From Phlebopus portentosus (taxonomy: Eukaryota > Basidiomycota > Agaricomycetes > Boletales > Boletinellaceae), in NCBI GenBank assembly GCA_037892935.1, contig JAYXKI010000004.1, positions 1,612,001-1,676,000 of the forward strand: a stretch of 64,000 bases of DNA, in the 5' to 3' direction. The notes under the pieces were generated by a model. That model saw nothing but the letters and a program-made list of their open reading frames with translations, was not told where the DNA came from and searched no databases. Below are positions 4,906 to 64,000 of the stretch, one piece after another. The position numbers and the translations under genes were made by a program. Positions within the stretch are counted from its first letter, which is position 1. Each line of letters opens with the position of its first letter.

Positions 4906-4946
4906 CGAAAAGAGTCCTTTAGGAAACCGATCAGTCGTCCCGACAT

Positions 4947-13407: not shown

Positions 13408-13447
13408 CACATCAGGTTTTTCTCCTTTTCGTCTTGTAAAATACATT

Positions 13448-14275
13448 TTAATATTTCAGTCCGTGATTATGCCCATGATCATGACTATGCTCATGCCCTA
13501 TCTTCTCCTTATCCCACGGCGAACTGATGTTCCATCCACGTTTCCAATCAATATAGTTTGACCCAGCAAAGTCAAACAACGCGTGAGCATCGCCGCACTG
13601 GTGCTCAATTGCCTTTCCTGTCTTCGTTTCCATACGCTGAACGAAGTCTGATGTGAAGGCCCCGAGCCCGTCTGGACGCTCGACAAGTTCACTGCTCAGT
13701 TCGTTTCGAAGATTTGAATCGAGCGGCTCGAGTGTGCGGTCCGCATGGCATAGTATCGACTGGCGCAAGTAATTCATGCAATGATGCTGATGGGGCCAAC
13801 TGACCCACTGACCTGCGCCGTATGGGTCATCGAGATAAATGCGCATCTTCTCAATACAATGCAGCTGATGGAACATCGCAATGCATAGCAAACGTGCTTG
13901 ATCGCCCACGCGTACGAAGCCGTAGCCAGGAGGGTAAATAGACTCCCACGTTTCAGCAGCAGATAGTCCAGAGATAGGAAAGGTTGTGGGTTCTAGGTCG
14001 AATACTCGTTTGGTTGGAAAGGTTGGCGAAGGAAGAGGAACATGCTCCGGATAATCGTCGCCAATGTAGGCTGCACGGGGTCAGTGAAAGTCACGTTGGC
14101 TCCAAATATCGAAGTATATTAGCTCACTGTAAAGATGCCCGGTAGGCTTTGATGTACTTGTGACGAAAACGTTCCAAAAGCGTAGAGAAAAGAGTAAAGC
14201 GTTGACTAATGTGCAGAGCACGACGAGTGCATCGCAGAGTATAGCGCGAGTCGTTCGCATTGGTGGGCCGTCCAC
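13448..14275 (-). CDS. UstYa-like (DUF3328) oxidase, with His-rich tail
   Basis: Two exons are joined by an intron at about 14078-14133 (GTGAGC...GTGCAG). Exon 1 has one transmembrane segment (LCDALVVLCTLVNALLFSLR). Exon 2 has the UstYa hallmarks: YIGDDYPEHVP, then the first metal-ligand motif FHQLHC, then the second as HQHHCMNYLRQSILC. Family members oxidise and cyclise ribosomally made peptides in the secretory pathway, as in ustiloxin-type pathways. The C-terminus is unusual: GHEHSHDHGHNHGLKY has six His residues and could bind metal. The gene is divergent from the Kex2-repeat precursor at 15386, with about 1.1 kb between the starts, and an MFS transporter follows. The family assignment is firm; the role in peptide processing is inferred from the neighbour. 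Confidence 0.85.
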
Positions 14276-15385: not shown

Positions 15386-15950
15386 ATGTATCTCCTCAAA
15401 TTTTTCGCTTTCGCCGTTACTCTCATCCCTCTCATTGCTGCAACCCCGTTGCCTGAGGCTGCAGTTGGTTCGTCTTCAGGCCATCTATTAATATTCTCTG
15501 AGTCTCTGATGCCTTGCTTTTAGCACCTCTTGAGAAGAGCTTCAAGCGTGGCGCCGAGCTCGAGAAGAATTTCAGGCGCGAAGTCGAACTGGAGAAAAAC
15601 TTCAAGCGCGACATTGAACTTGAAAAGAACTTCAAACGCGATATTGAACTTGAGAAGAACTTCAAGCGCGATGTTGAACTCGAAAAGAACTTCAAGCGTG
15701 GTATGACGAGGTTCTTTAAAGCCATATTGTGGCTAATCCGTCCGCTTTCTCTATAGAGCCACTTGAAGGATTGTACAAGCGTGTTGACCAGCTAGAGAGA
15801 AGCTTCAAACGTTTTGAGGAACTTGAAAGGTCTTTCAAGAGAGATGGTAAGGCGCATATTCTGAAGTGTTCTTCCTGTTCCTTACATTAAAATTAAGTTG
15901 AGCTTGAGAGGAGCTTCCGCCGTGCTGAAGAGCTCGAGAGCAGCTTCTGA
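15386..15950 (+). CDS. Kex2-processed repeat precursor peptide, ELEKNF type (putative RiPP precursor)
   Basis: Four exons: 15386-15467, 15524-15700, 15757-15846 and 15898-15950. Frame continuity across the GT...AG introns supports this. The protein opens with a clear signal peptide (MYLLKFFAFAVTLIPLIAA). About ten 8-10-residue units follow, each ending in KR or RR: xxELEKNF-KR in exon 2, then EPLEGLY-KR, VDQLERSF-KR, FEELERSF-KR and DVELERSF-RR, with AEELESSF at the C-terminus. Dibasic sites fit Kex2 cleavage in the Golgi, releasing many near-identical acidic octa- to decapeptides ending in Phe (one in Tyr). Introns 2 and 3 fall just after a KR unit, so exons carry whole repeats. The UstYa-like gene next door makes a dikaritin-like product likely. 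An alternative is a repellent-type cell-wall peptide. Confidence 0.85.
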
Positions 15951-28723: not shown

Positions 28724-30049
28724 GAAGAAGAGAAAGGGCTGCGTCGATAGTCGAGTAAGTACTGTAAGCAATAATGATGAGTTGTCAGCGGACCGACCCA
28801 TGTGACCGAAGTTTCTAGAAATGGACATGTCACGTGTACACCGCTCGGTTCAGCTTCCAAGTCCAAGATAACTTCAAGTTTAAGATTGATTGTTGTTCAT
28901 AACTCAAATATCATCAACAACCAAGACATACAGTATTTTCTGTCGTCTGGACTATGTATGTCCCGGCATGTCAAACGAAATCGAGGCTGTTCGGTTTGAA
29001 CACGTATGAATGACTCAGATGCTCTACAGCACTGGTTTATGTCGCTTTGTCGGACGGGAACAATGTCTCGGGTGAAACCTCAACTTTTGTTACGGAGACC
29101 TCTGCCAGAACGTAAGTGCCAAGATCAGAATCATTTAAACTGCTTATCCACATACCTCCCCAAGACAGGTACATGGCACAGCCCAGACTTTGACTCGCCT
29201 CTCGGCGCAAGTCAGAAGAAATGCCAAGGCGGACCTTGAAGTGGCCCAAGAGGCTATACACTTGGGCCTCCACCTCGGGATTTCTTCATTTGTTCAGCGT
29301 ATCACAAATTTCGCGGACGAGGGTTATGATATGAGAACGAGGGTCCTGTGATTGTGTATGGGTAAGTGAAAACGAACCTGGAGCGTTCTAATCAGATAAT
29401 TACGAGTCGCAGGAAATCATGCTTGGCTCAAGTGAACACCAAGTCGAAATCTGTGCCGACGTCGAGTAGGATGGCTTGTGTGGAATGTAAGTAGGTACTG
29501 CATGTTTCGCTCTTCAATCGTCACCTTTGCTGACATATCGAAGACCTTGCCCCGACGCACCTCGTTATAGTTCCGTTGTAATCCTTTTGTTAACAGACCC
29601 TGTTCTAAGACCTTCGTTCTCTACTGATAACAAGACTGGAAGAAGGGCTCGAGTGGAGCGGGCGACAATACTACCGATGCACCAAGGCCTTCTGAGGACG
29701 TATTGGCGGTTCTTTCAGTATGTTGCGTGATGGTGCCGTCGCTCGGCACGTACGACCAAGCATCCCCCTAGAGTTTTCGAATTTCCCGTGTCCTCCGTAG
29801 CCCCATCGGCCAAGGGGATATTTCTTGGCGTTCAGTGACTCCGAGATGCCGGAAGTAATGGTTTGCGACATCTTATAAATGGGCTTTCATCCGCCTGACG
29901 CCCCCAGGTCTTGACTCACAAGACATTCCGAAGCCTTAAGATTTTTCTTACATCATCCCGACACTGAAGAAACTAAGGTGTGTATGTATGTGTTTGTGCT
30001 CTGCCTAGAGAATGGCTCGTACTCATCACCACTCGGACGTTCGTAGATT
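28724..30049. other. Intergenic, no gene seen
   Basis: Short, mutually overlapping frames only. It includes upstream DNA of the Ca2+-ATPase gene. Confidence 0.4.
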
Positions 30050-33000: not shown

Positions 33001-33940
33001 TCAACATCATTATGAACACCTTTGCCGCTCTCGCTCTTGCCACCGACCCTGCCACACCAGCGTTACTCGATCGTGCACCTGACAAGATGTCCGCATCGTT
33101 ATTTACAGTCGATATGTATAAGCAAATACTTGGACAGGCTCTCTACCAGACGACTATTATTCTCATCTTCCATTTCGCAGGCGAAAACATTCTCAACCTT
33201 ACAGGAGACGATAGCAATGAGGCCGTGCAGTTCAACAATGAGCTCAAGCTTTCAACCCTCGTCTTCAACGCGTTTGTCTTCGCCCAAATTTTCAATTCTA
33301 TCAACTGTCGTCGCATTGGCAACCACAAGAACATCTTTCATGGCATGTATCGGAACCCATACTTCATTGGCATACTTCTGATTGGTACGTAGCACTTTCA
33401 TCTGACGCATATCATTCTGACATGTGTCTTCGTACAGAAACCGGCTGCCAAATAGTCATTGTATTCTTCGGCGGACAAGCCTTTTCTGTGACCGAGATCA
33501 GCGGAAAATTCTGGGGGATTTCTCTGGCATTGGGTGTCGTGTCAATTCCGCTAGGCTTTCTTATTCGGTGCATATCTAATCCCCCAGTTGAACGGTTCTT
33601 CTGCAAGATTGGCCTCATGCGCGATCGGTCCATCTTGCCAACGGAACGCCCGAGCAGTGGCACTGGTGCCGATGAGAGTGAAGACAGCCGTATCATGAAG
33701 GCTCTCGACAAGCTCCGGTTCTGGTCCCCGAGGAACTCCGTTGCGTTTAGCCGTTCGACGACTCTGATTGGGACGGGTGTGGCTAACAGCTCGGTCACAC
33801 CTAAGCTAATCACCAATCGAGAAGTCGGTGTGTTGCCAGCGAGTCCAAGTCAAGACGGTAGACGAGCTGAAGCGAGGGAGATCGACGAGAAGACAAACAT
33901 GGGCTGCGCCCCGGCGGACAACGCTAATGCAAACGGCTGA
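30050..33940 (+). CDS. P-type Ca2+-transporting ATPase, PMCA/PMC1-like
   Basis: Exons run 30050-30826 (GTAAGC donor after VVNIK), 30874 onward with introns near 31165-31220, 32300-32364 and 33384-33437, ending with TGA at 33938-33940. Type IIB pumps move Ca2+ out of the cytosol into the vacuole or across the plasma membrane. Visible motifs: actuator loop DESSITGESDAIKK, PEGLPLAVT in helix M4, phosphorylation site CTDKTGTLT, nucleotide-binding FSSERKAMGVVV and KGASE, and the hinge TGDGTNDGPALK. All catalytic residues are present. There are N-terminal and C-terminal disordered regions; as in fungal PMC1 proteins the autoinhibitory part may be N-terminal. No oddity is seen. The ATG at 30050 gives an in-frame acidic N-terminus; no better start is nearby. 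Confidence 0.93.
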
Positions 33941-41201: not shown

Positions 41202-43094
41202 ATGTCTAACAGCTTACTTACCTTTCAACTTTTGCTTCAACCTCCTCAACTTGTCTTTTGTCTGTTCCTCTTGCTCCTTGTCAGATTCACTCTTTTCTTC
41301 GTTTCGTACCTCGAAGCGCGTCGTCAGTTTCCGGGACCCCCTGTCTCCAGCATGTGGTTCGGAAATCTATCAGAGACGATGTCTGACGACATCCATGATA
41401 AATGGCGCGCCTGGCATAGGAAGTATGGTCCGATTTACCAGACGGTTAGCCTTTTTTTCCTCGACACATCAAGGGATGCTAATGCGCACTTTCGTCTGTG
41501 CAGTGGAACAGCATATTCTCTCGCGTCATTTATGTAGGGGATCCACGCGTTGTGTCGAAGATTGCCAATAGTAATTGGCCAAAGATACCTACACAATACT
41601 CAGGCTTCAAGCCCTTGAGCGGGTCGGCTCTATTCGCTCAAATGGACCAAGAAAGGTGGAAGCAACAACGTAAAGGCCTTGCTCCTGCGTTTCAACCGCA
41701 AACTGTCAACGAGCAGTATCCGACGCTGCAGAAATACCTCATGGTGAGTTCTGTTCACTCTCAGTGGCAACATTTTATACCAACGCGCCTCACGCAGAAA
41801 TTCATCGAAGAGATCGACGGAGCTGCGAAGCACGGGTCTTTAATAGACTTTTCTACGTTGGATGTCCTCCTTACACTTGATTTTGTCGGAGAAGTAGCCT
41901 TTGGGACCGAGCTGAACGCAATACGCGACGGCGAGAACTGTCGTATCCTGCAGATATTTCATGATGTTTTGCCGGAGCTCATGAAGTGTGGCCTCTTCCC
42001 ATTCATGAAAAGCACAAGACTGATGCACCGTGGAATCAAAGATCTGCGCGAACTGGCCTATATCGCGGTTCAAAGCGCCAGGGCAAGTGACGACGAGACA
42101 AAACTCGAGTCCGGCACTGGTAGTAAGCGGATATTTGAAATTCTTGCTTTGTAAGGGGATTCCAATGTGCTCACTTTTATTCTCCGACTAATGTCATCAT
42201 CAGGCAACGCGGGGCCAATGGCGGTTACTTGTTTTCTGCGAAAGAGCTGGTGGATAATTATGGTGCGATTTCTGCCTTCCCCACTGATAGTAAGCTGAGT
42301 TCTGTAAAGTTACTTTCCTCGTAGCAGGTGGCGATCCTACCGCACATGCGATTACTTTTGCAATATACGAAATAGTAAGCAGAGTAACATCCGGATAGTA
42401 ACCTATCATACACTTACAAGACGAATCAAACTTAGCTGAAAAAGCCGGATGTCCTGACGAAGCTTCAAGCTGAGCTCGATACACTATTGCCTCATGACTG
42501 CGAGGTTCCCACGATCGAGCAAGTATCGAGATTGCGTTACCTCAACTTTATTATCAAGGAGACGCTTCGCTACAATGGTCCAGGATTCGGCACCTTCAGG
42601 TATACTTCAACGGATGTCGAGATTAATGGGTATAAGCTGCCTGCAAATACGACTCTTGCATTGTGGAATCCTCAGGGTACGGATTTCTCCGGCGTCTCTC
42701 GTACGTTCTTATGTCTGAGCATTTCATAGTGCATCGCGATCCTAATTTATGGGGACCGGACGCAGATGAATTCAGTCCAGATCGCTGGTACACGAAGGAC
42801 GGCCAGACTGCTGTGGAGGGTCCTCGATTTATCCCTACTCCTGGTTCCTACTTCCCGTTCTCCTACGGGCCTAGGAAATGCCTCGGTCAGTATACTCGGT
42901 CGACCATGTCACGAACGTGTGTTCACTTTCATTTAGGGGAGGGATTGGCGATGCTCGAAATGTCGCTGACTTTAGCAACGCTGTTCAAGCGTTACGATCT
43001 TACGTTGCAAGAGAGATTCAACATGGAGTTCCTTCCTTCCTTTACGCTGTGCTCAAAAAACGGCCTTCCAGTGAAAGCGCGTCTTAGGGTTTAG
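41202..43094 (+). CDS. Cytochrome P450 monooxygenase
   Basis: About eight exons. The ATG at 41202 begins an N-terminal membrane anchor (LVFCLFLLLLVRFTLFFVSY) and the proline-rich hinge FPGPP. Then WRAWHRKYGPIYQT, RWKQQRKGLAPAFQ (C-helix), the oxygen-binding I-helix AGGDPTAHAITF, the ExxR motif IKETLRYNGPGFGTFR, HRDPNLWGPDADEFSPDRWY, and the haem-binding loop FPFSYGPRKCLG with the Cys ligand. An intron (42888-42939) splits the haem loop from GLAMLEMSLTLATLFKRYDL; stop at 43092-43094. It would be an ER-bound monooxygenase using NADPH-P450 reductase. All signature motifs are intact. The substrate is unknown. It is 5 kb from the peptide region and no evidence ties it to that pathway. Confidence 0.9.
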
Positions 43095-48518: not shown

Positions 48519-49343
48519 TCAGAAGCGGCCGGCGTTTGTAAGACGGTCTACAGAGCCGGCATTCGTCAGGCTGTCAACAGAGCCGGCGTTTGTCAATGCA
48601 TCCACACTGGCATTCGTCAACTCATCCACAGAGCCACTCCGACGAGCTTTCGCGTTCGTCAGCTGGTCGACCGAGCCCGCATTGGTGAGTGCATCAACGG
48701 AGCCCGCATTCGTAAGAGCGTCGACGGACCCGGCATTCGTCAGAGCGTCCACAGAGTCACTCCTCTGTTTAGTGATGAGAGTCAATCAACTATATGCTTC
48801 CAAAACTTGCAGCATATGGATGTACCTTTGCATTCGTCAGCTGATCAACAGAACCAGCATTTGTGAGCGCATCCACAGATCCTGCGTTCGTGAGCGCATC
48901 CACTCCAGAGTTGGTCAGCTCGTCAACCGAGCCGGATCTCTGAGAAGTTTGAGGGTTCCATGAGATTTATATTCATATATAGGACCGGTGATTGGCACCA
49001 AACCTTTGCATTCGTAAGCTGGTCGACCGAGCCCGCGTTCGTTAGGGAGTCAACGGAGCCAGCGTTCGTGAGCTCGTCAACTGAACCGCTACGACGGTGC
49101 CTGGCATTCGTGAGCGCGTCAACGCTGCCGGTATTCGTCAAAGCGTCAACGGAGGCGGCGTTTGTCAACGCATCGACGCTACCTGCGTTAGTGAGCTGGT
49201 CGACGCCCTATAGTCGAGACAAACGACAAGCAACGTGAGAACACAGGCCGCGGCGTTTGTTGAAAGCAACACACCTGGGCCGGAGCAGCCAAAGAAGTCG
49301 TAGCGAGCACGAGAGCAGAGGCGACAAAAGCGAACAGCTTCAT
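48519..49343 (-). CDS. Kex2-repeat precursor A, SVDxLTN type (putative RiPP precursor)
   Basis: Four exons on the minus strand: 49275-49343, 49004-49207, 48826-48939 and 48519-48764. Exon 1 is a signal peptide (MKLFAFVASALVLATTSLAA). The rest is about 18 units of the 7-8-residue repeat GSVDALTNA and variants (DELTN, DSLTN, DQLTN, DRLTN), grouped between dibasic sites: HRR, NAK|RSGS, NAK|RSDS and KARRSGS. It ends in NAGRF. Introns 2 and 3 split the KR site exactly between Lys and Arg. Kex2 cleavage would give peptides of about 25-35 residues with three or four repeats each. The repeats contain no aromatic residue. The gene is divergent from UstYa A at 50839. Frame and splice sites are intact throughout, unlike its inverted copy at 58071. 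Confidence 0.85.
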
Positions 49344-50838
49344 AATGAAAGTAAGGAGGAAATGACAATGCAGGATGAAGGCTCTGTTGGCTTTCTGTGG
49401 TCTCGACACGACTTGGCAAGTTGATTTATAGCCCTACAGTGCCGTCGCCTTTCTCCCGCCCAAGCCCATCTACTCCAACTAAGACTGTCTTTCATCAGCA
49501 ACCTTGCTTTTCCTCCGCCGATGGTTCTGTACGAATGAAACCCGCTCAAAAAAAAGTTAATGTCGAGAAGTACAGAAAGACACCAAAAGGGGCGCGCTGC
49601 AACGAATAACTCCCGTCAAGAGCATCCGGTCCATCCTATCGTGAACTAGCACGGACATGCAAATCCATGAATAGTAACAATGCAATCGATTTTACGAGGA
49701 ATGTATGTCTGTAAGTCAATGTACCCTAAAACATTGGAAGAACTTCGACAGCTGGTTGGTATGCTTGAAAATTTGGTGAATGGTCAGGGTCGTGAAAAGA
49801 CTGACACTATTGATCATCGAAGCAGGCTACGATAGGCAATTTACCAACACGAGATCTACAGACCATCAGTCTGAGAACCCGAAGCACCAGTGGTAACGTG
49901 AATCCAGAAGCATACCGGCATCTTTATCAACCGCGATGTGTCCGTGGTGAGCGGTCCGCCACACTGATAATCTGGCTTCCTCGGTCGCATGAAAGCCAGA
50001 TACGGAAAGAGAAACCAGTTCAAGCGACTTGTTGAAGACGTGCCGATGAATTAATAGCCCATACCGCATGTCTTGAACAAATAGACTGCATGGTCTGAGG
50101 ACGATGAATCAATCCGCTTTATCGACTTCTCTTCGGTAGTTGGCTAAACCCGTGCAATCACGAGGACCTTGAAGCACCTCGACCGCCTATATTATTTTGC
50201 TCCTTCTTGACAAATCCGATGATTTATTCTTCTTAGGTCAGAACCGAGGCCTCCCTTGTCAGTTACAAGATTGTCAAGCGAGAGGATACGACCAGAACGA
50301 AACTACAAGCAGATAGCAATGATTAAACATCGCCAATTACGCAGAATCCATCGGTCACGGAACGGCCATTCGCCAAATTTTTCAGCTGAGTTGGTTCAAG
50401 TTGCTATGAAAGGAGGGTCGATTTTGGTCGAAAGTACGTCAGTGGCACCTACGGACAAAACCATATGCATGTGAGAGACTTACACATATTTCTTGGAGGT
50501 ATTTGTTTAAACCCACCGACCTCGCGCATCCGTTGGCTCCGGACAATCCACTCCAATGCTCGACTTCCTAAATTATTGTAGATGACTTTGCTATGTCCGC
50601 AACAAGGTTGAGGAGCAAACGGTCTGTCGTCTCAACCCTGCAGGGTCCCGAAGAAGGACCCTCGATCTGATTCGACTGACTCTGTTCCTATCACGGAACA
50701 CAACATGTATTGCGAATCCGAAAGGCATCCATCTAAACGCCGAGGAGACCTGGAGAAAAGTAAATGGACACTTGGAATATCCAGTTGAAATCCTAAAACT
50801 TGGTCCCAGTTCTCGAACCCCAGGTCTCGCTCTCAGAA
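49344..50838. promoter_or_regulatory. Bidirectional intergenic region of pair A
   Basis: Shared upstream DNA of precursor A and UstYa A; no gene seen. The last 150 bp before UstYa A match the reverse complement of the region upstream of UstYa B, so the duplication included the UstYa promoter. Confidence 0.5.
49424..49430 (-). promoter_or_regulatory. TATA box candidate for precursor A
   Basis: TATAAAT on the minus strand lies about 81 bp upstream of the precursor A start codon at 49343. No TATAAA-like string is visible at the equivalent place before the decaying precursor B. Confidence 0.5.
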
Positions 50839-51834
50839 ATGGCCACAGCAAAACACGAAGATGTCGACTACCGTCCTCTAATGTCCAGCAGCGATGAAGG
50901 CCTCGACGAAGTTGAGGCCCTGCGGACTCGCTGGAGCCTCACATTGAATCCCTCGCCTTGGCGCAACAGAGCCATTGTTGCCATCTTTGCTATCCAAACA
51001 CTCCTCAACGTCCTTCTCATCGCATCCGGCCTGTACCTCTATTCACGCAGAGGCCCCTCGAATCCAATATTCCCCCAGCTGACATACTGTGAGCCGAAAA
51101 GTTGCAGAATGCGAATGAGGTAAAATGCTGAGCCTTTCACACAGCACCAGCTCAGAACGTCCTCTCCTTCAACGTCCACAAGTTCTATGAGGGTTTCGGC
51201 GAGAATATCACCATCTACCAGAAGGAGCCATCCGACGAGGTCGACAAGGCCTGGGAGGACCTCTATAGTTGTAAGCGAAATTCCGCCGCGCCGATTGCTT
51301 CATCCGACGGCTCATCATCTTGTATGAACAGTCGGTATTTCGGAGATTCCTAGGAGTACAGCAGAGAAGCTAGTAAACAAGACCTATCCGCTCGTCGGAT
51401 CCGGTGGCAACTATATCGTCGAGCTCGACGTCTTCCACCAGCTTCACTGTCTCGTACGTATTCTTCTGCAAGGCCGTTTTCATTCACCATGGCTGATCAA
51501 TGTCGCGCAGAACACATTGAGGATGGCACTCTCGCCAGAGTACTACAAGAAGAAGAACCTGACGGATCTCGAGAGGTCGTTCCTGGAGCCGCCCCACGCC
51601 CGCCACTGCCTCGATGCTATTCGGCAGTCGCTGACCTGCAACGCTGACATTGCCACATACGTCTGGTACTGGGATCCGCGAGACGAGATGGTGAAGCCGA
51701 CGGGCAACGTCGTCCACACGTGCAAGGACTACGACCGGATTGTACAGTGGGCGAAGGAGCACCATCTTCATTCGCATTTCGACAACAAGCTCTACGTTGA
51801 GGACGACTTGGAGGTCCCTATCCTCTATGCTTAG
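50839..51834 (+). CDS. UstYa-like (DUF3328) oxidase A
   Basis: Four exons, about 275 aa. The chosen ATG at 50839 begins MATAKHEDVDYRPLMSSS; an in-frame ATG at 50800 is possible. A transmembrane helix follows (VAIFAIQTLLNVLLIASGLY). The family block after the first intron is SPAQNVLSF, then YEGFGENITIY and AWEDLYS. The two conserved metal-ligand motifs are FHQLHCL and HARHCLDAIRQSLTC. The end is CKDYDRIVQWAKEHH and DDLEVPILYA. UstYa-family enzymes carry out oxidative cyclisation or related modification of Kex2-released peptides in ustiloxin-type pathways. The gene is divergent from precursor A and nearly identical to UstYa B at 55379. It looks fully functional. Confidence 0.88.
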
Positions 51835-52091
51835 TTGTGTAGGTCAATAGCACCGGCATTGTATTTGTTATGAGAAGCGCGTTTGCACCGTGTAACACTA
51901 GACAGACTGTATCATGAGAGAAGAAATAGTGAGGCAAAAATGCTTATGTAATAAATATACCCGCTCATTGATAATCTATTCTATCTGCCTGGTCACCTTC
52001 CAATTGTCCATGCACAACTATTCCGTACAAGGCTCTAAGATCATGGATATACATCTACCTGGCTACGCTCGTATTAATACCTCTTTGTCCT

Positions 52092-55000
52092 CTAGTCAAG
52101 CTTGTTTAGCAAGCTCTTCGACGCCTTGAGGCGCACGAGCTTGTCGGCGACGACATCTAATGGGATCATAGCGCCCTGATTCTTTGTACCAGCATCATCT
52201 CTGTTGCGCACATTGACGGCGCGTTCTTTCAGTTCGTTCTCTCCCACCACTTGACTAGACGTTAGTCCCCATTTTGGAACCAGCAATAGCACATGTAACT
52301 CACCGAGTATGAAATTGTATTGTGCGACTTCACCATTCCGGATTTTTTTGGGAAGTGTGTTATCCGAGTTGTCTACATCCGTAAAAAGTCCACGGTCCCA
52401 CAACTTTGTAGCGATTTCGGTGGCATAGTCTTTCTATTGACACCCAGATGCAAAAGAGCACATGCATGAGAAGTTAATATCTGGCCAAAGAATGGGAAGT
52501 TACTCACGAAAGGTGCAGCGACGGGGATAACAAGGACTTGGCGTGGAGAAATCCAGAATGGCCTGATGGAAGCCAATAAGTCGTCATGCTGTGTGCAATT
52601 CTCAAGGAGAAAACACACCATTTCCCAGCAAAGTGTTCCGTTACAATTGCAATGAAGCGTTCTAAGCTGCCAAGGATGGCGCGATGGATCATGACGGGAC
52701 GTGGTTTTTCCACGTTCTCATTGTCATCAGCCGATCGATATCTAAGGTTGAAACGTTCAGGAAGCTGAAAGTCAAGTTGAATCGTAGCGCATTGGAAGGA
52801 GCGATTCAGAGCATCACGGATGGTGACATCGATTTTCGGACCGTAGAAAGCGCCGTCACCTGGGTTGAGCTGCCACTTCCCGTGGTACTGCTTGTCGAGA
52901 GCTTCCCGTAATTGCTATGAAGAGAGTTAGATGAACAAAATTTACTCATGAAAGGCGGAATATAACGTACTGCCTCCGCCCTATCCCACGTCTCGATAGT
53001 ACCCAAGAACTTGTCGGGTCGAGTGGACAGTACCAAGCTGAACTCAAAACCGAAGAGGCCGTACGTATGTTGCATGAAATCGAAAAGAGCATTGAACTCT
53101 TGAGAAATCTACTCGGAAGATATTAGTAAGTGAAGGTTGACGTAGTCGCCTCACGCACCTGAGATTGCATGCAGAATACATGAGTATCATCTTGCATGAA
53201 GCGCCTCACCCTCGTCAGGCCCGAAAGTGCACCGCTAGCCTCGTTCCGATGGACAATACCAAATTCGGCCATTCTGATCGGCAGCTCCTTGTAACTTCGG
53301 TCGCGGGAATCGAAAATGATACAGTGACCGGGGCAATTCATGGGTTTAAGTGCCCATTTCTCCTTCTCAACGTCAAGCAAGAACATGTCGTCCTTGTAAT
53401 TTTGCCAATGTCCCGACGTCTCCCAGACTTTGATATTGTACATATTCGGGGAGATAACTTCCTGATACCCACGTTTATAATATTCTCCCTAGAAAGAAGT
53501 CAGAAAAGGTTTCAGTTACGATAGGGAACAAAAGAGACGAACTCTCATATGTTCTAAGAGGGTATTGTAGATCCGTGTACCATGCGGAAGCCAAAACGCA
53601 TTACCGGGCGCAAGGTCGTTGAAGAAGTATAGCTCTTGTTCCTGAAGAAAATCAGCCTTACCATCCAAATGAACGAGATACATGTACTTGACTAACCCTG
53701 CCAATCTTTCGGTGGTCTCTCTTTGCCGCTTCGGCCAAAAATGCCTTGTATTCCGACAATTGCTTTTTGTCTGGGAACGAGATACCATAGAGCCGCTGCA
53801 AGGAATCATTGTTTGCATCTCCCAGGAAGAAAGAAGAGGAGTTCTAAGGCACTGATCAATCGGTGTCTCTAGCAGCGCCTAAGTCCACACACCTTAGTAA
53901 GCATAAAGGCTTTAATTCTTCCGGTATGGGGAATATGAGGACCAATACAAAGGTCGATCATCGGTCCACATCGGTATACCGTCGTGGAAGTGCCGTCGGG
54001 AACCTTAGTCTCAATGAAATATTTTTTGTATTTATTATACTAGAGAATGGTCAGATTGGGGTGGCTTGAACGCACAACTTGGCTTGAACGCACCGCAAAC
54101 ATTTCAAGCAATTTCTCCTTTGATACCACCAGTCGCTCAAACTTTTGCCGGTCTTTTATGACGACGTCAGCTAACTTCTCCAATACCGGATAATCCGTGC
54201 TGACCACGGGCCTAGCATAGAAGGTCTGAATAACGCGCCCTTTCCGATCGAGAGGTAAGACTACCTAGCAGTATTGGCCATCTCATAGAAGAAGCCATCC
54301 TCAGTTGGAGGACCCATACAGAGATGACAACCATAATGTCGCTCGCAAGCTTCACCCAGAACATGCGCGGAAGAATGCCAAAAGACCTGCTTGCCTATAT
54401 GCGCCGTCAGACGAATGGACATGAAGGGTGTAAACAAATACGAGCCTTCCTGATGTTCGAAGTCTAGTAGCTCAAGCCTGCAAGACTTTTCTAGCGGTCT
54501 TTCCAAGTCCCATAGTACATCATCAACCTGAGAAACGCGTATATACCACTGAACATCCTAGAAGCACAGTGGCGTACCTTTGCAATGACCAGCCTTTCCG
54601 GCATGCTCTTTGATATCCCGCTCGCAATCTCCATGGGAGTGGTCTCCCAGCTCGTACCCTTTCGTTCGGACCCATCAGGTAAGGTAATGGTGATTTCTTC
54701 TCGAGGTTGCTCTACCAGATGGAAAAATGAGATAGCATTGTGAAATAAATTGTTGGACACGCACGCTTCACAAACTCAACGTATTCGGCCTTCAGTTGGT
54801 CGAAGAGTTTGATCCTGTGATCAATATACTCCGGAGGAGGTTGAAGCTGCGATGCTTATCAGCTGTTTCTAAATACCGCTGTAATAACAAAGAGCAAACT
54901 GCACCTCTAGAGAATGCTGGGAGTCTAGGTGTACCTTAGCCTTTTTGTCCTTAGTCTTTTTCGTGCCATTTGCCACGACATCCGCATGCTTGTTCTCCAA

Positions 55001-55198
55001 TGCAGGAAGATGTACTGGTCGCGCGGACGAGGAGATTGGATGCACATCCGCCATTGCTGTTGCGCTGGTGTGAGCAAGTCGGGTTAAGGGCGCGAAAGAA
55101 TGGAAGTTGAGCGACGTGGGACGCGATGAGCGCTGGCAGAAGATGAGAAGAGGCGTGAGTCGAGTCACAGACATGCCCTCGCGCGCGCGCGTGGACAA
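52092..55198 (-). CDS. Threonyl-tRNA synthetase, probably dual-targeted
   Basis: More than ten exons on the minus strand. The enzyme charges tRNA-Thr. Visible parts in order: an N-terminal extension, a TGS domain ([20 protein letters not shown]), the editing domain with [16 protein letters not shown], and the class II catalytic core: [40 protein letters not shown] and [16 protein letters not shown]. The anticodon-binding domain ends [18 protein letters not shown] (stop 52092-52094). Zinc and ATP motifs are intact. The ATG at 55198 opens a basic, Ser/Arg-rich leader typical of mitochondrial import. A second in-frame ATG ([10 protein letters not shown], near 55052) would give the cytosolic form. 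It sits between the two arms of an inverted duplication of UstYa/precursor genes but shows no damage. Confidence 0.93.
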
Positions 55199-55378
55199 CG
55201 GACGAGCAAGGAAACAGCCAGCTAAGCAGCTTATGTAAGCATAGAGTTACTTTTAAATCGATTTTATTTGCTATTATTTAGCCGCAAACGGGACGGGCTT
55301 TGGCATTGACTCTTCTTTGTATTATACAATCCAAGCTATGGAACTAACACGTTTCTTACAACGAATACTATGCCGGTG

Positions 55379-56375
55379 CTAAGCATAGATGATGGGGATC
55401 TCCAAGTCGTCCTCGACGTAGAGCTTGTTGTCGAAATGCGAATGAAGATGGTGCTCCTTCGCCCACTGTACAATCCGGTCGTAGTCCTTGCACGTGTGGA
55501 CGACGTTGCCCGTCGGCTTCACCATCTCGTCTCGCGGATCCCAGTACCAGACGTATGTGGCAATGTCAGCGTTGCAGGTCAGCGACTGTCGAATAGCATC
55601 GAGGCAGTGGCGGGCGTGGGGCGGCTCCAGGAACGACCTCTCGAGATCCGTCAGGTTTTTCTTCTTGTAGTACTCTGGCGAGAGCGCCATCCTCAACGTG
55701 TTCTGCGCGACATAGATCAGCCATGATGAATGAAAACGGCCTTGCAGAAGAATACGTACGAGACAGTGAAGCTGGTGGAAGACGTCGAGCTCGACGATAT
55801 AGTTGCCACCGGATCCGACGAGCGGATAGGTCTTGTTTGCTAGCTTCTCTGCTGTACTCCTAGGAATCTCCGAAATACCGACTGTTCATACAAGATGATG
55901 AGCCGTCGGATGAAGGAATTGGCGCGGCGGAATTTCACTTACAGCTGTAGAGGTCCTCCCAGGCCTTATCGACGTCGTCGGAAGGCTCCTTCTGGTAGAT
56001 GGTGATATTCTCGCCGAAACCCTCATAGAACTTGTGGACGTTGAAGGAGAGGACGTTCTGTGCTGGTGCTGTGTGAAAGGCTCAGCATTTTACCTCATTC
56101 GCATTTCTGCAACTTTTCGGCTCACAGTATGTCAGCTGGGGGAATATGGGATTCGAGGGACCTCTGCGTGAATAGAGGTACAGGCCGGATGCGATGAGGA
56201 GGACGTTGAGGAGTGTTTGGATAGCAAATACGGCAACAATGACTCTGTTGCGCCGAGGCGAGGGATTCAATGTGAGGCTCCAGCGAGTCCGCAGGGCCTC
56301 AACTTCGTCGAGGCCTTCATCGCTGCTGGACATTAGAGGACGGTAGTCGACATCTTCGTGTTTTGCTGTGGCCAT
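55379..56375 (-). CDS. UstYa-like (DUF3328) oxidase B
   Basis: Mirror copy of UstYa A with the same four-exon structure and start (MATAKHEDVDY; ATG at 56375). It carries the same transmembrane segment with small changes (VAVFAIQTLLNVLLIASGLY), the FHQLHC motif and HARHCLDAIRQSLTC. The C-terminus is DDLEIPIIYA instead of DDLEVPILYA. Reading frames are intact in all exons I checked. It is divergent from the frameshifted precursor B at 58071, so it may act on peptides from precursors A or C. Confidence 0.87.
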
Positions 56376-58070
56376 TTCTGAGAGCGAGACCTGGGGTTCG
56401 AGAACTGGGACCAAGATTTAGAATTTCAACTGGATATTCCAAGTATCCATTCCTTTTCTCCAGGTATCCTCGGCGTTTAGATGGATGCTTTCCTGATGTT
56501 GCGACACATGTTGTGTTCCGTGATAGGAACGATGCACCTACTTACTCCTCCCCTTGCGGCGAGCGCGCTAGAACAGTTTGCTTACCCTGCAGGGTTCAAA
56601 CGAAGAGGACAGTCGCCCCTTTCAGCATGTCAAGTCATTCTTCAACTCAGTGCCAACCTAATAATGCCGCTTCGTCTAGAGAAGCCAAACGCAACACTGC
56701 CTGGAGCCACTTGAGCTAGTGCTGTATTAGTGCTCGGTTAGTCTTACCAAATGCCCTCACCGATCGGACAGAATTCTCACAGGTACCATGTGATCTTTAT
56801 TTGTAGTCCGAGATTCTTTTGATCATTCATTTGTGTCTTGATCAGAGGACGATTATTGAGCAAACACGTTGCGAGCCTTGACATGTCATACCTCATTCGA
56901 CTGAAAATTTTACTGATGGGAATGACCGGTCCGGGCCATCGCATGGTTAGGAAAGCAAAGTTTGATCAATACAATTGTGGCTCGCTTGGCGACTCGTTCT
57001 AGGCCGTACTTTGTCAAGATAAATCACTCGCCATCTTACCTTTCTGACAGGCGAGCCCTGAGCTCACTGTCACGAGCGAGAGCACCGGGTGATACGAGAT
57101 GAAAGGCGAGAGATCGCAAATAACACAGAACTAGGTCTCTTGACCGATTTCCCGCCGGCTCGGATATACGGGTCAAAGTAGCTCCCGATCTCGTCGAAGA
57201 GATGCTCGGTAACAAAGAGGCACGCATCTCCGGTCGAGAGACGCAGAGTTTGGACTTCATTCGAGCACATGAAGCCCGTCTACTGCAAATCTTGGGACAC
57301 CAGGACTACATTCTATACCATGGATCTGCAGCTGGCCTTTCCATATCGAGAATCGATACGTCCGAATAATGGGCAGAATGCGGCGAGCGTGATCCCGGAT
57401 GCATTGTCATTGACAATTCTACCGATTTGCTTCAGGGCCTATATTATCACTGATAAAAACGGCGCATTTGCTTCCCAGATTGATCCTGTGCGGATCTCGT
57501 GCTAAAGGAATAACCAATTGCAGTCGGCTTCGCGGATCCATTCGTGGACAATATTATATTATCAGTCCGACGACTGGCTTCCTGCCAAGCACTTCGGCAT
57601 ATTTCAGCACGCCACCGGAATGCCGCCTTGCGTCGAATGACTGTGCTAATGTGTTTGTCTTCGTGTCTTGATTTCTTCATGGCCCTGACCTTTCGCCTTT
57701 GATGACGACAGTAGAAGTTCTTCTGCTAAAAATGGGGTGTATGCTGAGAGCCCAGATTTACCTATTATGGACTGACCGCTTATGTCCGAAAGAAGGTCTT
57801 CTTTCCGAAATCGTGATTGCTTTTGGCGCCTTTCAATCTTCTCGTCGTAATTGTAAACGAGTTGGGTTTTCTTCTCACAGACCAGTCTGCAGAGGAAGGG
57901 CGTGAGCGATGGAAAGAAACCGCGGCCGAAAGGCGGCCTTTGACAGAGGCAAACGGGAGATAGTAATCCGGGTTAGGAAGGGCAATATTATGCCTGATAC
58001 TGCCCTTTAGACCTTCAGAAATCCAGATAACTTTCTACCTACACTGTCATTTGCTAGCCTTACTCTGACC
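56376..58070. promoter_or_regulatory. Bidirectional intergenic region of pair B
   Basis: 1.7 kb between divergent UstYa B and precursor B. Homology to the pair A spacer is clear only near the UstYa side. No gene is supported; the short frames at 57036-57700 have no features. Confidence 0.4.
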
Positions 58071-58968
58071 ATGAAGTTCTTCAAGTTTGTTGCCTCCGCT
58101 CTCGTCCTGACCGCGACCTCCATGGCCGCTCCGGCTCGGGTGTGTTATCTTCACCCGTAGTTTCATCGTATCCCATGTTTATTCTCATCTCGGTTGCAGG
58201 ACGTTGACCAGCTCACCAATGCTCGCAGTCGATGCGTTGACCAACCCCGGCTCTGTTGACGCTCTGACAAATGCAGGTTCTGTGGAAGCGCTCACGAATG
58301 CCAGACTCCGTCGCAGCGGATCAGTTGACGAGCTCACGAATGCTGACTCCGTCGACACCCTGACAAAGGCTGGCTCTGTGGACGCATTTACGAATGCTGG
58401 AAGCGTTGACGCGCTCACTAATGCTAGGTTCCGTCGCAGCGCCGCCGTTGATGAGTTGACCAATAGAACCACGCTGGTTCTGTTGACCATCTCACTAACG
58501 CGGGCTCGGTCGACCAGCTTACGAATGCAAAAGTTTGGCCTCATTAACCAGTACCATATATGAATATGAATCTCATGGAACCCTCAAGCTTCTCAGAGGT
58601 CCGGCTCGGTTGACGAGCTGACCAACTCTGGAGTGGATGCTCTCACTAACGCAGGATCTGTGGATGCGCTCACAAATGCTGGTTCTGTTGATCAGCTGAC
58701 GAATGCAAAGGTACATCCATATGCTGCAGGTTTTGGAAAGCATAGTTGATTGACTCTCATCACTAAACAGAGGAGTGACTCTGTGGACGCTCTGACGAAT
58801 GTCGGATCCGTCGACGCTCTTACGAATGCGGGCTCCGTTGATGCACTCACCAATGCGGGCTCGGTCGACCAGCTGACGAACGCTAAAGCTCGTCGGAGTG
58901 GCTCTGTGGATGAGCCGACGAATGCGAGTTCTGTAGACCGCCTTACGAACGCCGGCCACCGCTTCTGA
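58071..58968 (+). pseudogene. Kex2-repeat precursor B, SVDxLTN type, frameshifted
   Basis: Exon 1 (58071-58139) is an intact signal peptide (MKFFKFVASALVLTATSMAA). Exon 2 begins at 58200 with DVDQLTNA, then a two-base loss near 58225 moves the repeats to another frame. In the starting frame a TGA follows soon after. A second shift near 58468 restores the original frame (AGSVDHLTNAGSVDQLTNAK). The last two exons are intact and, as in precursor A, follow introns placed between Lys and Arg; they end NAGHRF. The dibasic sites (RLRRSGS, RFRRSAA, KARRSGS) are preserved. Unless splicing avoids the shifts, this copy cannot make the full precursor. One alternative donor/acceptor pair could bypass the first shift but not the second. 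Confidence 0.8.
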
Positions 58969-59325
58969 CCCAAGGTCGGCGGAAGAGATATTACACGATG
59001 ACCACTACGAATACAATATTGTGTGTGTTGGAACTAGTCTGTAGATCTTTACGGAACAGAACTATGTTGAGACGATCCTGATAAAGGTGAATCTATTGTC
59101 ATTTTGATGTCAAAGCTTATCTCCGATTTGGATCTCAGCACCGAACTCGGATCAACTCACTTTTTTTGTTTCTTTTGAATCTGGTGGTACAGCACAAACG
59201 TCCTATATGCTACATGATATCATGTGCGCGTTTGTGAGATGAGACGTTCAGGCGCAATCAAAAGAACATTCAATTCATCACTGCAAGGTGGATATTATGT
59301 AATTGCCACTTTGACTGCGAGGCGA
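58969..59325. other. Intergenic, no gene seen
   Basis: Space between converging precursor B and UstYa C. 3' flanks only. Confidence 0.4.
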
Positions 59326-60432
59326 TCATGCATAGATAATAGGTACATCCAAATCATCCTCCACATATACTTTGTTATCAAAATGGGTCCGTATGCGGTG
59401 CCACTTAGCCCAGTCAACGATGCGCTCGAAATCTCTGCAAGTGTGTACTACGTTTCCGGTTGGTTTTACCATATTGTCTGCAGCATCCCATTGCCAAACG
59501 TAAGTAGCAATATCTGCATTGCACATAAGCGACTGCCGGATGACATCATGACAGTGACGAGCATGCGGGGGCTCAAGGAATGATAACTCTAGTTTCGTGA
59601 GGTTCTTTCTCCGATAATAATCAGGTGAGAGTGCCATGCGAAGCGTGTTCTTTGAAATAAGTCAAATCAGTCGCAGTTACTAGCGCGTATACAAAGGAGG
59701 TCTACCAGGCAATGCAGTTGATGGAAGACGTCCAGTTCGAGAATGTAGTTCCCGCCAGAACCGGCAAGCGGATATGTCTTGTTGGGTAACTTCTCCGCGA
59801 TACTTCTGGGTACTTCTGAGATTCCGACTACAATACAGATGTTGAGTTAAATATACGATGACTTACCGACTTGAAGCGAACTTACAGCTATAAAGGTCTT
59901 CCCAAGCTTGGTCTACTTCGCCAGAGGATTCCTCTGGTATATCGTAATGTTTTCACCGAATCCTTCGTAAACTTTCTGGACTCCGAACGAAACAAGATCC
60001 TGGACCGGCGCTACACGACAATGACGCGAGTGTTAAAAGCAAGGTTAATAACACAAGTAGTGAAAATTTACAGTACGTCAACTGAGGAAAGATGGGATTT
60101 GACGGGCCTCTGCGTGAATATAGGTATAGACCAGATACAGTGAGGAATATATTAAGCAGACTCTGCACAACGAACACGACGACGAGACCACGGTTGTGCC
60201 ATGGAAAGCGAGCCAAGGCTAGGCTCCAACGCAGCCGTGTGTTCTCGGCCTCTTCGGTTCCATCATCGATTCTTGAGATCAGAGGAAGTTTTCTTGTTTG
60301 TTCATAAGTGATTGTGATTATCCGTCTACAGTCTTCAGGACAAGTAGCCTGAGTAGGTGGACGACTTGGGTATCTGGAAGAGGTCCAGAAGCCCTTCAAC
60401 CTCGAGTTCCTTCCAGCTAATCTTCTGCGCAT
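59326..60432 (-). pseudogene. UstYa-like (DUF3328) oxidase C, with one-base frameshift
   Basis: More diverged paralog of UstYa A/B with the same exon plan. Preserved: a transmembrane segment (VVFVVQSLLNIFLTVSGLYL), SPVQDLVSF, YEGFGENITIY, FHQLHCL, HARHCHDVIRQSLMC and the end DDLDVPIIYA (TGA at 59326-59328). In exon 2, after ENITIY, one base is missing near 59935: the correct continuation EESSGEVDQAWEDLYS is in another frame, and the unshifted frame reaches TAG within eight codons. The first ATG in frame is at 60432 in non-homologous sequence; the position matching MATAK in A and B has no ATG. So this copy is probably dead, although a sequencing error could explain the one-base gap. It is divergent from the intact precursor C. 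Confidence 0.8.
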
Positions 60433-61405
60433 GTCACGGAGAATGGCAGGTCATCCGCACAAAACTCGACCTAATCACGTTCCAAACTTTCGTGCCGTGA
60501 TAGGAACGAGACTGTCAGCCTGTTCTCCGGAAGACAATATTTCCAGGCCTCTGTCACTAATATCGAAAGTTGCAATCGTGCCTGTACTTCACTGAAAGCG
60601 TCCCGTGTCCAAAGCAGATATCAGACATGATGCAGAGATCCGTACCTAACGGATGCGACATTGGAATGCCAAGCCTGCCCTAGCGGTCTGGATCGGAATT
60701 TTCCGAGTCGTTATTAGAACCTCACGCGCGGATGCGACGATCGATCTTTTTCGTTCGGTCCTGCATGTCCTTTGCTCTTCCTTTAACGATGAAGTTGATC
60801 TAGTCTTCCATTACTTTTTGCTCAATGGTGGTCATTTGAAAAGGAGGCACGTCCTGTTCCGGAGAGAGGATGTTCTCATTAAACAGCAACGTTCCTAGCT
60901 TAGCACCAGCGTGATACCATCCCGACATCTTGCAACATCAGTTCTATTTCTACACTTCTCGCGAACCGCAAAGCACGAAAAGATTGCCCTCAACTGCAAA
61001 TAGCTTGCCATTCTGCACCTCATTGAGAGGAAGATGGTCTCCTATACCTCCGAGGACATGATAGGATTTCTCCGACTTTATCCTACTATTGGTCGAGGTT
61101 CGTAAAATTTTCTCTTTCACTCAGGTCGAGATCATTGATCGCGCACCGACAGGCGCGGAAAGAGTTTGTAGCTTCTTCCTGTCCTTTGCTGGAAACCCAC
61201 ACTGGCACGTACCGCGTGATCAAGAGGGAAACAAGTCGACTCGAAGTCTAGTAAAGGCATCTATATGCAGAGAGGGCTCGACAGGATCGAATAGCTATAA
61301 AAACTGGCAGCAGAAAGACTATCTAACCTCCAGAAAGCCAACTGCGCCTCCTTCACAACGCACGCTGGATCTATCTTCCAACTTGTAACATAAAAACTCT
61401 TCACG
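60433..61405. promoter_or_regulatory. Bidirectional intergenic region of pair C
   Basis: Upstream DNA of UstYa C and precursor C; no gene supported. Confidence 0.4.
61296..61302 (+). promoter_or_regulatory. TATA box candidate for precursor C
   Basis: TATAAAA lies 110 bp before the precursor C ATG at 61406. Confidence 0.55.
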
Positions 61406-61477
61406 ATGAAGTTCAGCGCTATCTTTGTAGCTTCAGCCGTCTTGCTGGCCGCAACGTCCCTTGCAGCCCCATCCCAG
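61406..61477 (+). other. Conserved signal-peptide exon of the precursor family
   Basis: Precursors A, B and C share a first exon of 69-72 nt that encodes MK(L/F)-F/S-x-FVAS-A-(L)-VL and ends in AAP-(A/S)-(Q/R), followed by a phase-0 intron. The exon thus carries the secretion signal alone and the repeats start in exon 2. Confidence 0.8.
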
Positions 61478-61929
61478 GTATGTACTTAGCTCAGAGTGAA
61501 AGCATTGCGGGACAGACTTATTGATTCCTTTTTTGTGTGCAGAGCCTCGGCTCCGTCGACGAGCTTACGAATCACCGTCGCGGCAACTCCGTTGACCAGT
61601 TGACGAACGCTGGCTCAGTCGACGAGCTAACCAACCACAAACGTGGAGGCTCGGTCGACGAGCTCACTAACCATAAGCGCGGGGAATCCGTCGATGAACT
61701 CACGAATAACAAGCGTGGAGGCTCCGTCGACGAACTCACGAACCACAAGCGCGGTGGGTCCGTCGACGAGCTTACAAACCATAAGCGCGGAGGCTCCGTC
61801 GACGAGTTGACCAACCACAAGCGTGGCGGATCTGTAGACGAACTTACCAACCACAAACGCGGAAGCTCCGTCGACGAGTTGACGAACCACAAACGCGGAG
61901 GTTCCGTCGACGAACTCACCAACCACTGA
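61406..61929 (+). CDS. Kex2-repeat precursor C, GGSVDELTNH-KR type (putative RiPP precursor)
   Basis: Two exons (61406-61477 and 61543-61929). Exon 1 is the signal peptide (MKFSAIFVASAVLLAATSLA). Exon 2 is almost entirely a 12-residue unit, GGSVDELTNHKR, in about ten Kex2-delimited segments: a first ending HRR, one longer segment with an internal SVDQLTNAG unit, one GES...NNKR variant, one GSS variant and a final unit without KR. Complete cleavage and trimming would give mostly the decapeptide GGSVDELTNH. The repeat has no Tyr, Phe or Trp; His is the only ring side chain. The frame is intact and the repeats are homogeneous, which suggests recent amplification or gene conversion. Its UstYa neighbour is frameshifted, so modification would depend on A or B. 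An unmodified secreted peptide is also possible. Confidence 0.88.
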
Positions 61930-62202: not shown

Positions 62203-64000
62203 TCAGCCGGTCTTCGCCTTCATATTCCTCCATAAAGTTAAGAATAAAATCGCTCCGACGCCCAATAGAGCCATCTGCACACCTATATACTTCTCCATGC
62301 CGACTTGTACACCGGCCCCTCCCCATACGGACCCGCTCACTCGGCCGGTGAAGTTACTGTACTGGATCAAAAGGCTTAGCCGGCCGTTCCACTTCTGGTG
62401 CAATTGCTTGCTGAGCAAGCTAATCGTCACCGTGCTGGCAACATTAAACCCGAGTGCAACGAGGAACCAGCAGACGAAGAACGACCCAAAGGAGGCCTTG
62501 TCGAAGTGGATGATCAGGAGTGTGAGAAGCAGACCGAGGAACCCTGTAGAGGCACCAAAGGCAAGGATGAAGCGGTCTGGAATCCGACGGACGAGGAAGA
62601 GGTTGAGGAAGAGGAAAGGGAAAATCGCGACACCTCCCAGGGCGATGAAGTTCCCTGCGGCGAATGGCGACCAGTTGAACTGGGCGGCGGTGAAGACGGC
62701 GATGTTCGCTTCCCATCCGCTGAGAGTGAAGAAGCAGGTCATGGCGAACCAGCACATGGTGATGATGACGCCCCATTGCGGCACGGAAATGTGCTCTGCC
62801 TCGTCTACGAATGAAGGGGAGGGTGCGCGGGAGACTGAAGCAGAGGTTGCAGTTGACGAAATTGCTTCTTGAATGATGGTGTCTTGGACCGGGGATGATT
62901 TCGACTCGAGCTCGATTGCACTTTCTTCTCGCTGTACTGGAGGTGTGTCTGGTACATCCGAGAAGAACAAGGACACCGCTACCCAGTAGATGGCCCAGAC
63001 GACGGCCATAACCCAACCTGGACTCGTGTCGCCATTGAAAACCCTGTTGTCAAAGCCAACCTTGTATAGCAGACCTGACGATATGACCTTTAGAATCTCC
63101 AGATGAATACAGGAAATTGAACGATCAGTACCTCCCATGAATGGTCCGACGCTACATCCAATCCCTTGTCCAATGACGAGCCATCCAGCTAAGGTCGTCC
63201 GTCTACGAATACCAACTATCCGCGCATCAGAGCAATAGCGTTTCTACACAAGAATATCAACACATCAAAAAGTAGCAACTATGGGGAGTGATCTCACTGA
63301 GTACATAAAGTTTGCCATTGCCAACCCGATGACGGATCTTCCGATAAGGATGAGCCAAAGAAAGTTAGCATACTGCAATAGCGATAGATCAGCTAGGGGT
63401 AAAAACTGATCTGTTTTCGAAATACATACGTATGCCAGACCGTACAGGATATGTCCGACAATAGCGACCGCGCATGAAAAATGAATCGGTCTACTGTACT
63501 TTCCTTGATGCCAACAAAGATTATATCAATCTCACGAGATAAACGCCCAACGGGCGCTTAAGAGTTACTGACCTTGATCATATTTCAGAAGAAAAGGCAA
63601 GGCGACGCCAGCGAAAACGACTGGTATTCCTAGAACGAGACCAGAGAACGTGGCAGTTCCCCCAAGGAATTCCGCGTATCTGCTAGCCGAAGACACGGGA
63701 AGAAACATTGTGATCTAGATTTGAAAACTATGTCAAAAAAAAAAGGGGTCAAGGACAACAACTATCTCCATATGAAACGCACCTGCGACATAACATTCAA
63801 CATAATGACGATAACCAAGGAAGACATCCTTGGCAGCCTAAACTCGGGATCCAGTTCGGCACCCCCGTCATCGCCGACGCTCGCCGGCACTTGATCAACT
63901 ACGCTACGACTCGTTGGTAGGGCCGACGCTCTTAACACGTTAGATCGCCGTTTCAAAACCTGGTTGAGCTTGGATAGTGTCGCAGCAGAATTTAGCAGCA
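62203..64000 (-). CDS. MFS transporter (5' end outside the window)
   Basis: Minus-strand gene. The frame is still open at the right edge (...SAATLSKLNQVLKRRSNV), so the start is beyond 64000. Exons read LPRMSSLVIVIMLNVMSQ, ITMFLPVSSASRYAEFLGG, YANFLWLILIGRSVIGLAMA and GWLVIGQGIGCSVGPFMGG. The large last exon starts GLLYKVGFDNRVFNGDTSPG and contains a charged central loop plus helices such as WGVIITMCWFAMTCFFTLSG, FLFLNLFLVRRIPDRFILAF and FGSFFVCWFLVALGFNVAST, ending MKAKTG (stop 62203). Twelve-span topology with a central loop fits the major facilitator superfamily; the subfamily is unclear. It sits next to precursor C and could export a product, but this is positional inference. Confidence 0.83.

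Follow-up and report, generated by a model that had tools for sequence, protein, structure and literature searches.

Divergent UstYa and SVDxLTN-repeat precursor genes as putative peptide-modification modules in the basidiomycete Phlebopus portentosus

Here, we analysed a stretch of 64,000 nucleotides of the Phlebopus portentosus genome (38.4 Mb in 23 contigs), hereafter called the window (C4:1612001-1676000; coordinates without a contig name are positions within it). It contains three genes for UstYa (DUF3328) proteins, U1 to U3, each divergent from a gene, P1 to P3, whose product has a signal-peptide-like start and tandem SVDxLTN repeats. We favour the reading, with a probability of about 0.58, that the UstYa proteins modify the SVDxLTN repeats before their release by Kex2 and that each pair constitutes a minimal peptide-modification module. 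The DNA itself shows how the genes are built and paired, which motifs they encode, where frames are broken and that selection acts on the repeats; copper, oxidation, Kex2 cleavage in this fungus and the sharing of U1/U2 between P1 and P3 are inferred.

From left to right, the gene order is P1(-), U1(+), a threonyl-tRNA-synthetase-type (ThrRS-type) gene(-), U2(-), P2(+), U3(-), P3(+) and a major facilitator superfamily (MFS) gene(-), with the stop codons of P1 and P3 as the bounds 48519 and 61929. The gap from ATG to ATG amounts to 1495 bp in pair 1 and 1695 bp in pair 2. U1 and U2 are recent inverted copies (96.4% DNA identity) flanking the ThrRS-type gene, which was named by a reading of its sequence and is placed outside the pathway. 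An earlier note on this DNA, made from the letters alone, had proposed three DUF3328 genes that sit head-to-head with secreted-type repeat genes. This layout was confirmed for all three pairs; intactness was not, as both partners are intact in pair 1 only. Pair 2 retains an intact enzyme only (U2) and pair 3 an intact precursor only (P3), the reading frames of U1, U2, P1 and P3 being open throughout. When all three frames of each exon were compared, P2 was found to change frame twice within exon 2 and is pseudogene-like. U3 is interrupted at least once, by a frame break in exon 2; where the intact Sanghuangporus vaninii orthologue (P0001) has its start codon, the frame of U3 is lost, with an in-frame ATG present upstream. 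P2 and U3 are most likely decaying. The breaks might also stem from assembly or sequencing error, but a high indel rate is disfavoured by the long open frames (552 and 944 aa) of the Dicer-type gene in another part of the window.

Pfam scans of the window's main open frames gave PF11807 matches well above the curated cut-off of 25 bits for U1 (113 bits; E 2.4e-32 over exons 3-4), U2 (113.7 bits; E 1.5e-32 over exons 3-4) and the last exon of U3 (73 bits; E 4.1e-20). The HxxHC motifs and the one membrane helix that had been claimed for these proteins are seen in U1, which has a single strong helix at residues 45-63 and the motifs HQLHC (161-165) and HARHC (195-199). When relatives were aligned (37 rows), all but one of the six motif residues proved invariant, the exception being conserved in at least 90%. 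Between U1 and U2, the ratio of non-synonymous to synonymous substitution rates (dN/dS) is 0.13. The nearest relatives of U2 come from S. vaninii (75% over 99%) and Fomitiporia mediterranea (80% over 62%, partial), which fits the basidiomycete host assumed in the note. The structure of the S. vaninii relative was predicted (pLDDT 84.5, pTM 0.70); the model places one helix at 38-68, and its helices 156-170 and 191-208 cover the motif residues. No solved structural relative was found by sequence (U1 in phmmer yielded a single row at chance level, E 0.45, and a profile search none) or by the fold of this model (best E 1.8).

The precursors come in two formats. P1 comprises 19 VDxLTN units with dibasic, Kex2-type sites only after every third or fourth unit; cuts at these sites would yield five fragments of 28-40 residues with three or four units each, the first of which depends on the assumed signal cleavage. 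A KR site is created across each of two exon joints, and the dibasic spacing of P2, judged by eye, resembles that of P1. P3 is a classic Kex2-repeat precursor, with 11 SVDxLTN units and a dibasic site at nearly every unit, and Kex2-type cuts give ten fragments, six of which are GGSVDELTNH (encoded as GGSVDELTNH-KR). The mass calculated for unmodified GGSVDELTNH is 1028.464 ([M+H]+), and P1 fragments would be at 2722.265, 3463.631, 3733.800 and 3881.875. The dibasic punctuation described earlier for all repeats thus applies to P3 and fails for P1 and P2 except between groups of units, and a single precursor format had to be abandoned. Features expected of Kex2-processed repeat proteins (KEPs), namely a signal peptide, tandem repeats and dibasic sites between the repeats, are all present in P3 and in P4 of a fourth pair introduced below, and in P1 with the sites between unit groups only; signal peptides were judged by eye. 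After the signal peptide, P1 and P3 contain no Tyr, no Trp and no Cys. Their fragments that follow a dibasic site begin with SG, SD, GN, GG, GE or GS, and dipeptides of the alpha-pheromone-like form XA/XP (STE13) were not found after the Kex2 sites of either protein.

To what extent are these repeats maintained? Units chosen by motif bias the proportion of non-synonymous differences (pN) downward; P3 was hence compared in eight fixed, adjacent tiles of 36 bases (12 codons) and P1 in two runs of four adjacent units. The proportion of synonymous differences (pS) was 0.735 in P3, 0.775 in P1 exon 4 and 0.708 in P1 exon 2, with a pN of 0.045, 0.067 and 0.199, respectively. The repeats are under strong purifying selection, and it is the peptide rather than the DNA that is kept. 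With synonymous sites close to saturation and the units nonetheless preserved, a chance origin of the SVDxLTN repeat was rejected.

A six-frame search of the genome with P3 located SVDxLTN repeats at three loci only, P1 to P3 (seven exon matches), and PF11807 was found at 14 places (17 candidates scored). P1 and P2 start less than 2 kb from a UstYa gene and P3 at about 1 kb, a proximity (within 2 kb of one of the 14 places) expected for a random gene in approximately 0.2% of cases per independent locus. U1 and U2 are recent copies, and the SVDxLTN pairing therefore counts as two independent cases. In a tree of 36 rows, U1 and U2 group with Fomitiporia (support 96/87) and U3, represented by its last exon only, with S. 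vaninii (99/92), both within a joint clade (100/99) into which none of the five other P. portentosus rows falls. The tree included 8 of the 14 UstYa places; of the six absent, two are score-identical to U4 (near-identical copies), two were unextracted and two yielded only the frame of a neighbour. By this grouping, the separation of the U1/U2 and U3 lineages would predate that of the Fomitiporia and Sanghuangporus sequences. This suggests that the pairing was kept across an old UstYa duplication, with both lineages still adjoining SVDxLTN genes, which we regard as the best evidence of a functional link.

Repeat precursors neighbour four of the 14 UstYa places (U1, U2, U3 and U4), as judged by two detectors that respond either to three or more similar copies or to a clear self-match with two dibasic sites in one open frame. 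These were run on the window and on 14 stretches of ten kilobases, 12 around other UstYa places and two beside the window. Rows from outside the window were low-complexity or basic-rich frames, and a short or intron-broken KEP could escape both detectors. Two head-to-head pairs of UstYa genes lie at C6:1636117/1637304 and C6:1682828/1683788 (L005-L008), where no KEP was detected.

The fourth pair, missing from the note's set of three, lies outside 48519..61929 and consists of U4, a UstYa protein of a different subfamily (51.1 bits) with a His-rich C-terminal tail (HEHSHDHGHNHG), and the divergent P4, 1.1 kb apart. P4 is a tidier KEP than P1, with regular 8-residue cores ending in Phe (GAELEKNF, DIELEKNF, VDQLERSF; general form xxELEKNF-KR) between KR or RR sites, and its single Tyr lies outside the 8-residue repeat. 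Victorin is closed between the side chains of a C-terminal Phe and an internal Leu (PMC9233826), and by analogy a similar closure is conceivable for P4. A fixed U4-P4 link is weakened by copies of the U4 block (10986-14802) that lack P4: the block recurs at C4:1525572-1529388 and C4:1564457-1568273 (99.7% identity) and once more at C4:1485927-1489100 (96.6-98.4% identity), the copies spanning about 140 kb, and it ends at 14802, before P4, which is uncopied. Another gene in the block matches But2 weakly, its 23.7 bits falling slightly short of the cut-off, and the flanking stretch of the block has inverted copies.

How might such a module work? P1 and P3 would enter the endoplasmic reticulum by their signal peptides and there meet the UstYa partner, an enzyme that would span the membrane once, with its HxxHC(x)nHxxHC motif on the lumenal side and presumably holding two copper ions. 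The enzyme would oxidise side chains of the SVDxLTN unit before Kex2 cuts at KR or RR and Kex1 trims the ends; kexin-type P-domain matches occur at two loci in the genome. Processing would release single-unit peptides of about 10 residues (GGSVDELTNH) from P3 and multi-unit peptides of 28-40 residues from P1. Since the units lack Tyr, Trp and Cys, tyrosine ethers of the ustiloxin type would be excluded and the modification would have to fall on aliphatic C-H positions or polar side chains, as hydroxylation, desaturation, halogenation or a non-phenolic cross-link. At present, the system probably comprises U1 and/or U2 acting on both P1 and P3; with its partner U3 broken, P3 would have to rely on U1/U2. 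The MFS gene beside P3 is a possible exporter. The UstYa-type enzyme ApnU reportedly acts on aliphatic positions. In CctR, which like the PhomYc-e type shares HxxHC(x)nHxxHC and a membrane helix with U1 and U2 and performs chemistry without Tyr, the motif forms a binuclear copper site of a membrane-bound, O2-dependent homodimer that catalyses C(sp3)-H hydroxylation, and Ala mutants of the motif lose activity (PMC12435403). UstYa relatives of the phomopsin pathway are held to form dehydro-Ile, dehydro-Asp and dehydro-Pro (PMC10880069). As these enzymes act on aliphatic positions, a core free of Tyr, Trp and Cys is no bar to UstYa action. The further-reaching idea that the SVDxLTN modules are basidiomycete pathways for ribosomally synthesised and post-translationally modified peptides (RiPPs), in which a dicopper UstYa modifies purely aliphatic or polar, phenol-free units in a single-unit decapeptide and a multi-unit chain format, is put forward only tentatively.

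The closest known systems are the dikaritins (ustiloxin, phomopsin, asperipin-2a and victorin, with the epichloecyclins close to them), in which likewise a secreted repeat precursor with Kex2 sites stands beside a DUF3328/UstYa gene with two HxxHC motifs; for asperipin-2a, a single UstYa gene is reported (PMC7329392, PMC12048977). The locus described here differs from them by its Tyr-free cores, its basidiomycete host, one UstYa gene per precursor in divergent orientation and the retention of several units per Kex2 fragment in P1. The earlier classification as dikaritin-type thus stands as far as gene pairing goes, also across the old duplication: a KEP is co-located with a DUF3328 gene, with both sides intact in pair 1 only. 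It does not stand for the Tyr core, used for ether cyclisation in ustiloxin, phomopsin and asperipin and absent from P1 and P3, nor for the tyrosinase. The original five-gene definition of dikaritins includes a tyrosinase, a methyltransferase and a peptidase (PMC12048977). No tyrosinase lies near the locus, all five genome matches being at C4:0.96 or 2.63 Mb, and a scan of the main window open frames, a weak test, found no methyltransferase or peptidase families other than a retroelement protease.

Dikaritins are placed in ascomycetes (PMC9233826, PMC12048977). Basidiomycete KEPs with DUF3328 neighbours (Umemura 2020) show the same gene arrangement in the same phylum, so that the UstYa-KEP arrangement in a basidiomycete is already in print and it is the Tyr-free unit that is unusual. 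In Pleurotus, 16 UstYa-like genes were called probably involved in dikaritin production (PMC8893723). The linear KEP peptides of agaricomycetes (Vogt et al. 2022) share the precursor architecture and the probable Kex2/Kex1 processing, whereas here a UstYa gene adjoins each precursor; those of four agaricomycetes are linear or minimally modified, and the main text mentions DUF3328 0 times (PMC9769878). In agreement with the note, no product with the SVDxLTN repeat was found in the main texts searched, from which the string SVDELTN is absent, although supplements may list the unit; 'LTN' likewise has 0 occurrences in the main texts examined for it, among them that of Umemura 2020 (PMC7329392), whose supplementary tables may list the unit.

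A search of 5.8 billion protein sequences with P3 returned only P0056 (E 0.11; scoring covered the 7996 candidates with most words in common), in a collection in which small intron-bearing precursor genes may lack annotation. With P1, two metagenomic proteins were found, P0055 (E 3.6e-5) and P0056 (E 1.2e-4), which have SVDxLTN-type repeats without a signal peptide; beyond the repeats, neither matched anything in the P. portentosus genome at E 1, and they are not used as support. P0055 and P0056 are 50% identical, and P0056 has an irregular run, GSVDELTNSGVDALTNAGSVD, in common with P1 exon 3. P0057 (E 0.78), considered as a P1 relative, proved unrelated.

But, do the UstYa proteins act on their neighbours at all? 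Several points weigh against the proposed modification. The modules are so far known as genes, and two of the six (P2 and U3) are broken. Among the proteins scored, no SVDxLTN precursor with a signal peptide was present, in a collection that includes the S. vaninii and F. mediterranea UstYa relatives. Of the repeat sequences in DUF3328-linked KEPs, 65.6% contain Tyr, and the SVDxLTN units have none (PMC7329392). The precursors might instead be ordinary KEPs that give linear, unmodified secreted peptides, serving as signals or acting on other organisms, next to UstYa proteins that have another substrate or are neighbours merely by descent. The absence of Tyr, Trp and Cys from the units would suit such peptides, and the KEP peptides detected so far in agaricomycetes (Coprinopsis, Lentinula and Pleurotus) are indeed linear or minimally modified (PMC9769878). 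A DUF3328 gene lies within 15 genes of just 6.1% of basidiomycete KEPs (103 of 1680, compared to 1647 of 5372 in ascomycetes; PMC7329392), and in P. portentosus the remaining ten of the 14 UstYa places are without a repeat precursor detectable by the two detectors over at least 7 kb on each side. Plain descent, however, sits poorly with all three SVDxLTN loci adjoining UstYa genes of one lineage, from which the five other own tree rows are absent, and with a pairing that survives an old duplication; we consider this explanation rather unlikely, though a serious competitor.

The frame breaks in P2 and U3, together with the retroelements and large segmental copies in the neighbourhood, could also indicate a decaying relic whose pairs were duplicated and are being lost, with nothing made now. 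P1, P3, U1 and U2 are nevertheless open throughout, U1 and U2 diverge at the low dN/dS given above and the units are kept despite diverged synonymous sites, which makes such a relic improbable. Even less credit is due to a structural role, in which the multi-unit peptides of P1 would form wall or surface fibres like the repellents of Ustilago, with P3 as a separate derived form: the P1 fragments, with three to four units, are comparable in size to the 37-residue Rep1 peptides (PMC9769878), but P3 releases mostly single units of 10 residues, the SVDxLTN unit is polar and not amphipathic (judged by eye; the amphipathicity of repellents is taken from a reference title), and the UstYa linkage has no place in it. 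Modification of the repeats by their UstYa neighbours thus remains the reading that we prefer.

Elsewhere in the window, two 993-bp direct repeats (5946-6938 and 9000-9992; 99.8% identical) enclose a 2 kb interior with an open reading frame of 560 aa without a Pfam match, resembling an insertion of a long-terminal-repeat (LTR) element; beside it lies a retroelement pol region (RVT_1, RNaseH, integrase zinc-binding; 2197-5621). Long open frames encode a Dicer-type protein (23229-27719; helicase, Dicer dimerisation and RNase III domains) and a P-type cation ATPase (30047-33389). Cytochrome P450 fragments (PF00067) occupy several open stretches at 41483-42900, some 6 kb to the left of the stop codon of P1. 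In the MFS gene, 63265-63525 has no Pfam match.

Table 1 Genes of the UstYa/precursor pairs and their neighbours (positions within the window).
Feature	Position	Strand	Details
U4, UstYa of different subfamily	13451..14260	-	2 exons, PF11807 E 2.1e-13
P4, Kex2-repeat precursor	15386..15950	+	4 exons; borders of intron 2 uncertain, with six compatible splice variants
P1, SVDxLTN-repeat precursor	48519..49343	-	intact, 210 aa, GT-AG spliced frame open throughout; 4 exons (49275-49343, 49004-49207, 48826-48939, 48519-48764)
U1, UstYa (PF11807)	50839..51834	+	273 aa, 4 exons
ThrRS-type gene between inverted copies	52095..55057 (approximate)	-	tRNA-synt_2b in 53126-53488
U2, UstYa	55379..56375	-	273 aa, 4 exons, inverted copy of U1
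P2, P1 copy	58071..58968	+	signal exon intact, exons 3-4 open, exon 2 with two frame breaks
U3, UstYa	59326..60432 (upper bound approximate)	-	pseudogene-like
P3, precursor	61406..61929	+	intact, 152 aa, 2 exons (61406-61477, 61543-61929), GT-AG intron
MFS transporter gene adjoining P3	62206..63525	-	PF07690 E 8.5e-10 on 62206-63243; may reach further upstream

The UstYa-made RiPPs named in the literature cited here are from ascomycetes, and the KEP peptides of agaricomycetes are reported as linear or minimally modified. A UstYa-precursor pair of this age and conservation, with neither Tyr, Trp nor Cys in its cores, would offer a direct test of whether basidiomycetes make UstYa RiPPs, and a short one, since the masses of the unmodified peptides are predictable. 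It would likewise test whether plain aliphatic residues within a ribosomal peptide are open to modification by these copper enzymes.

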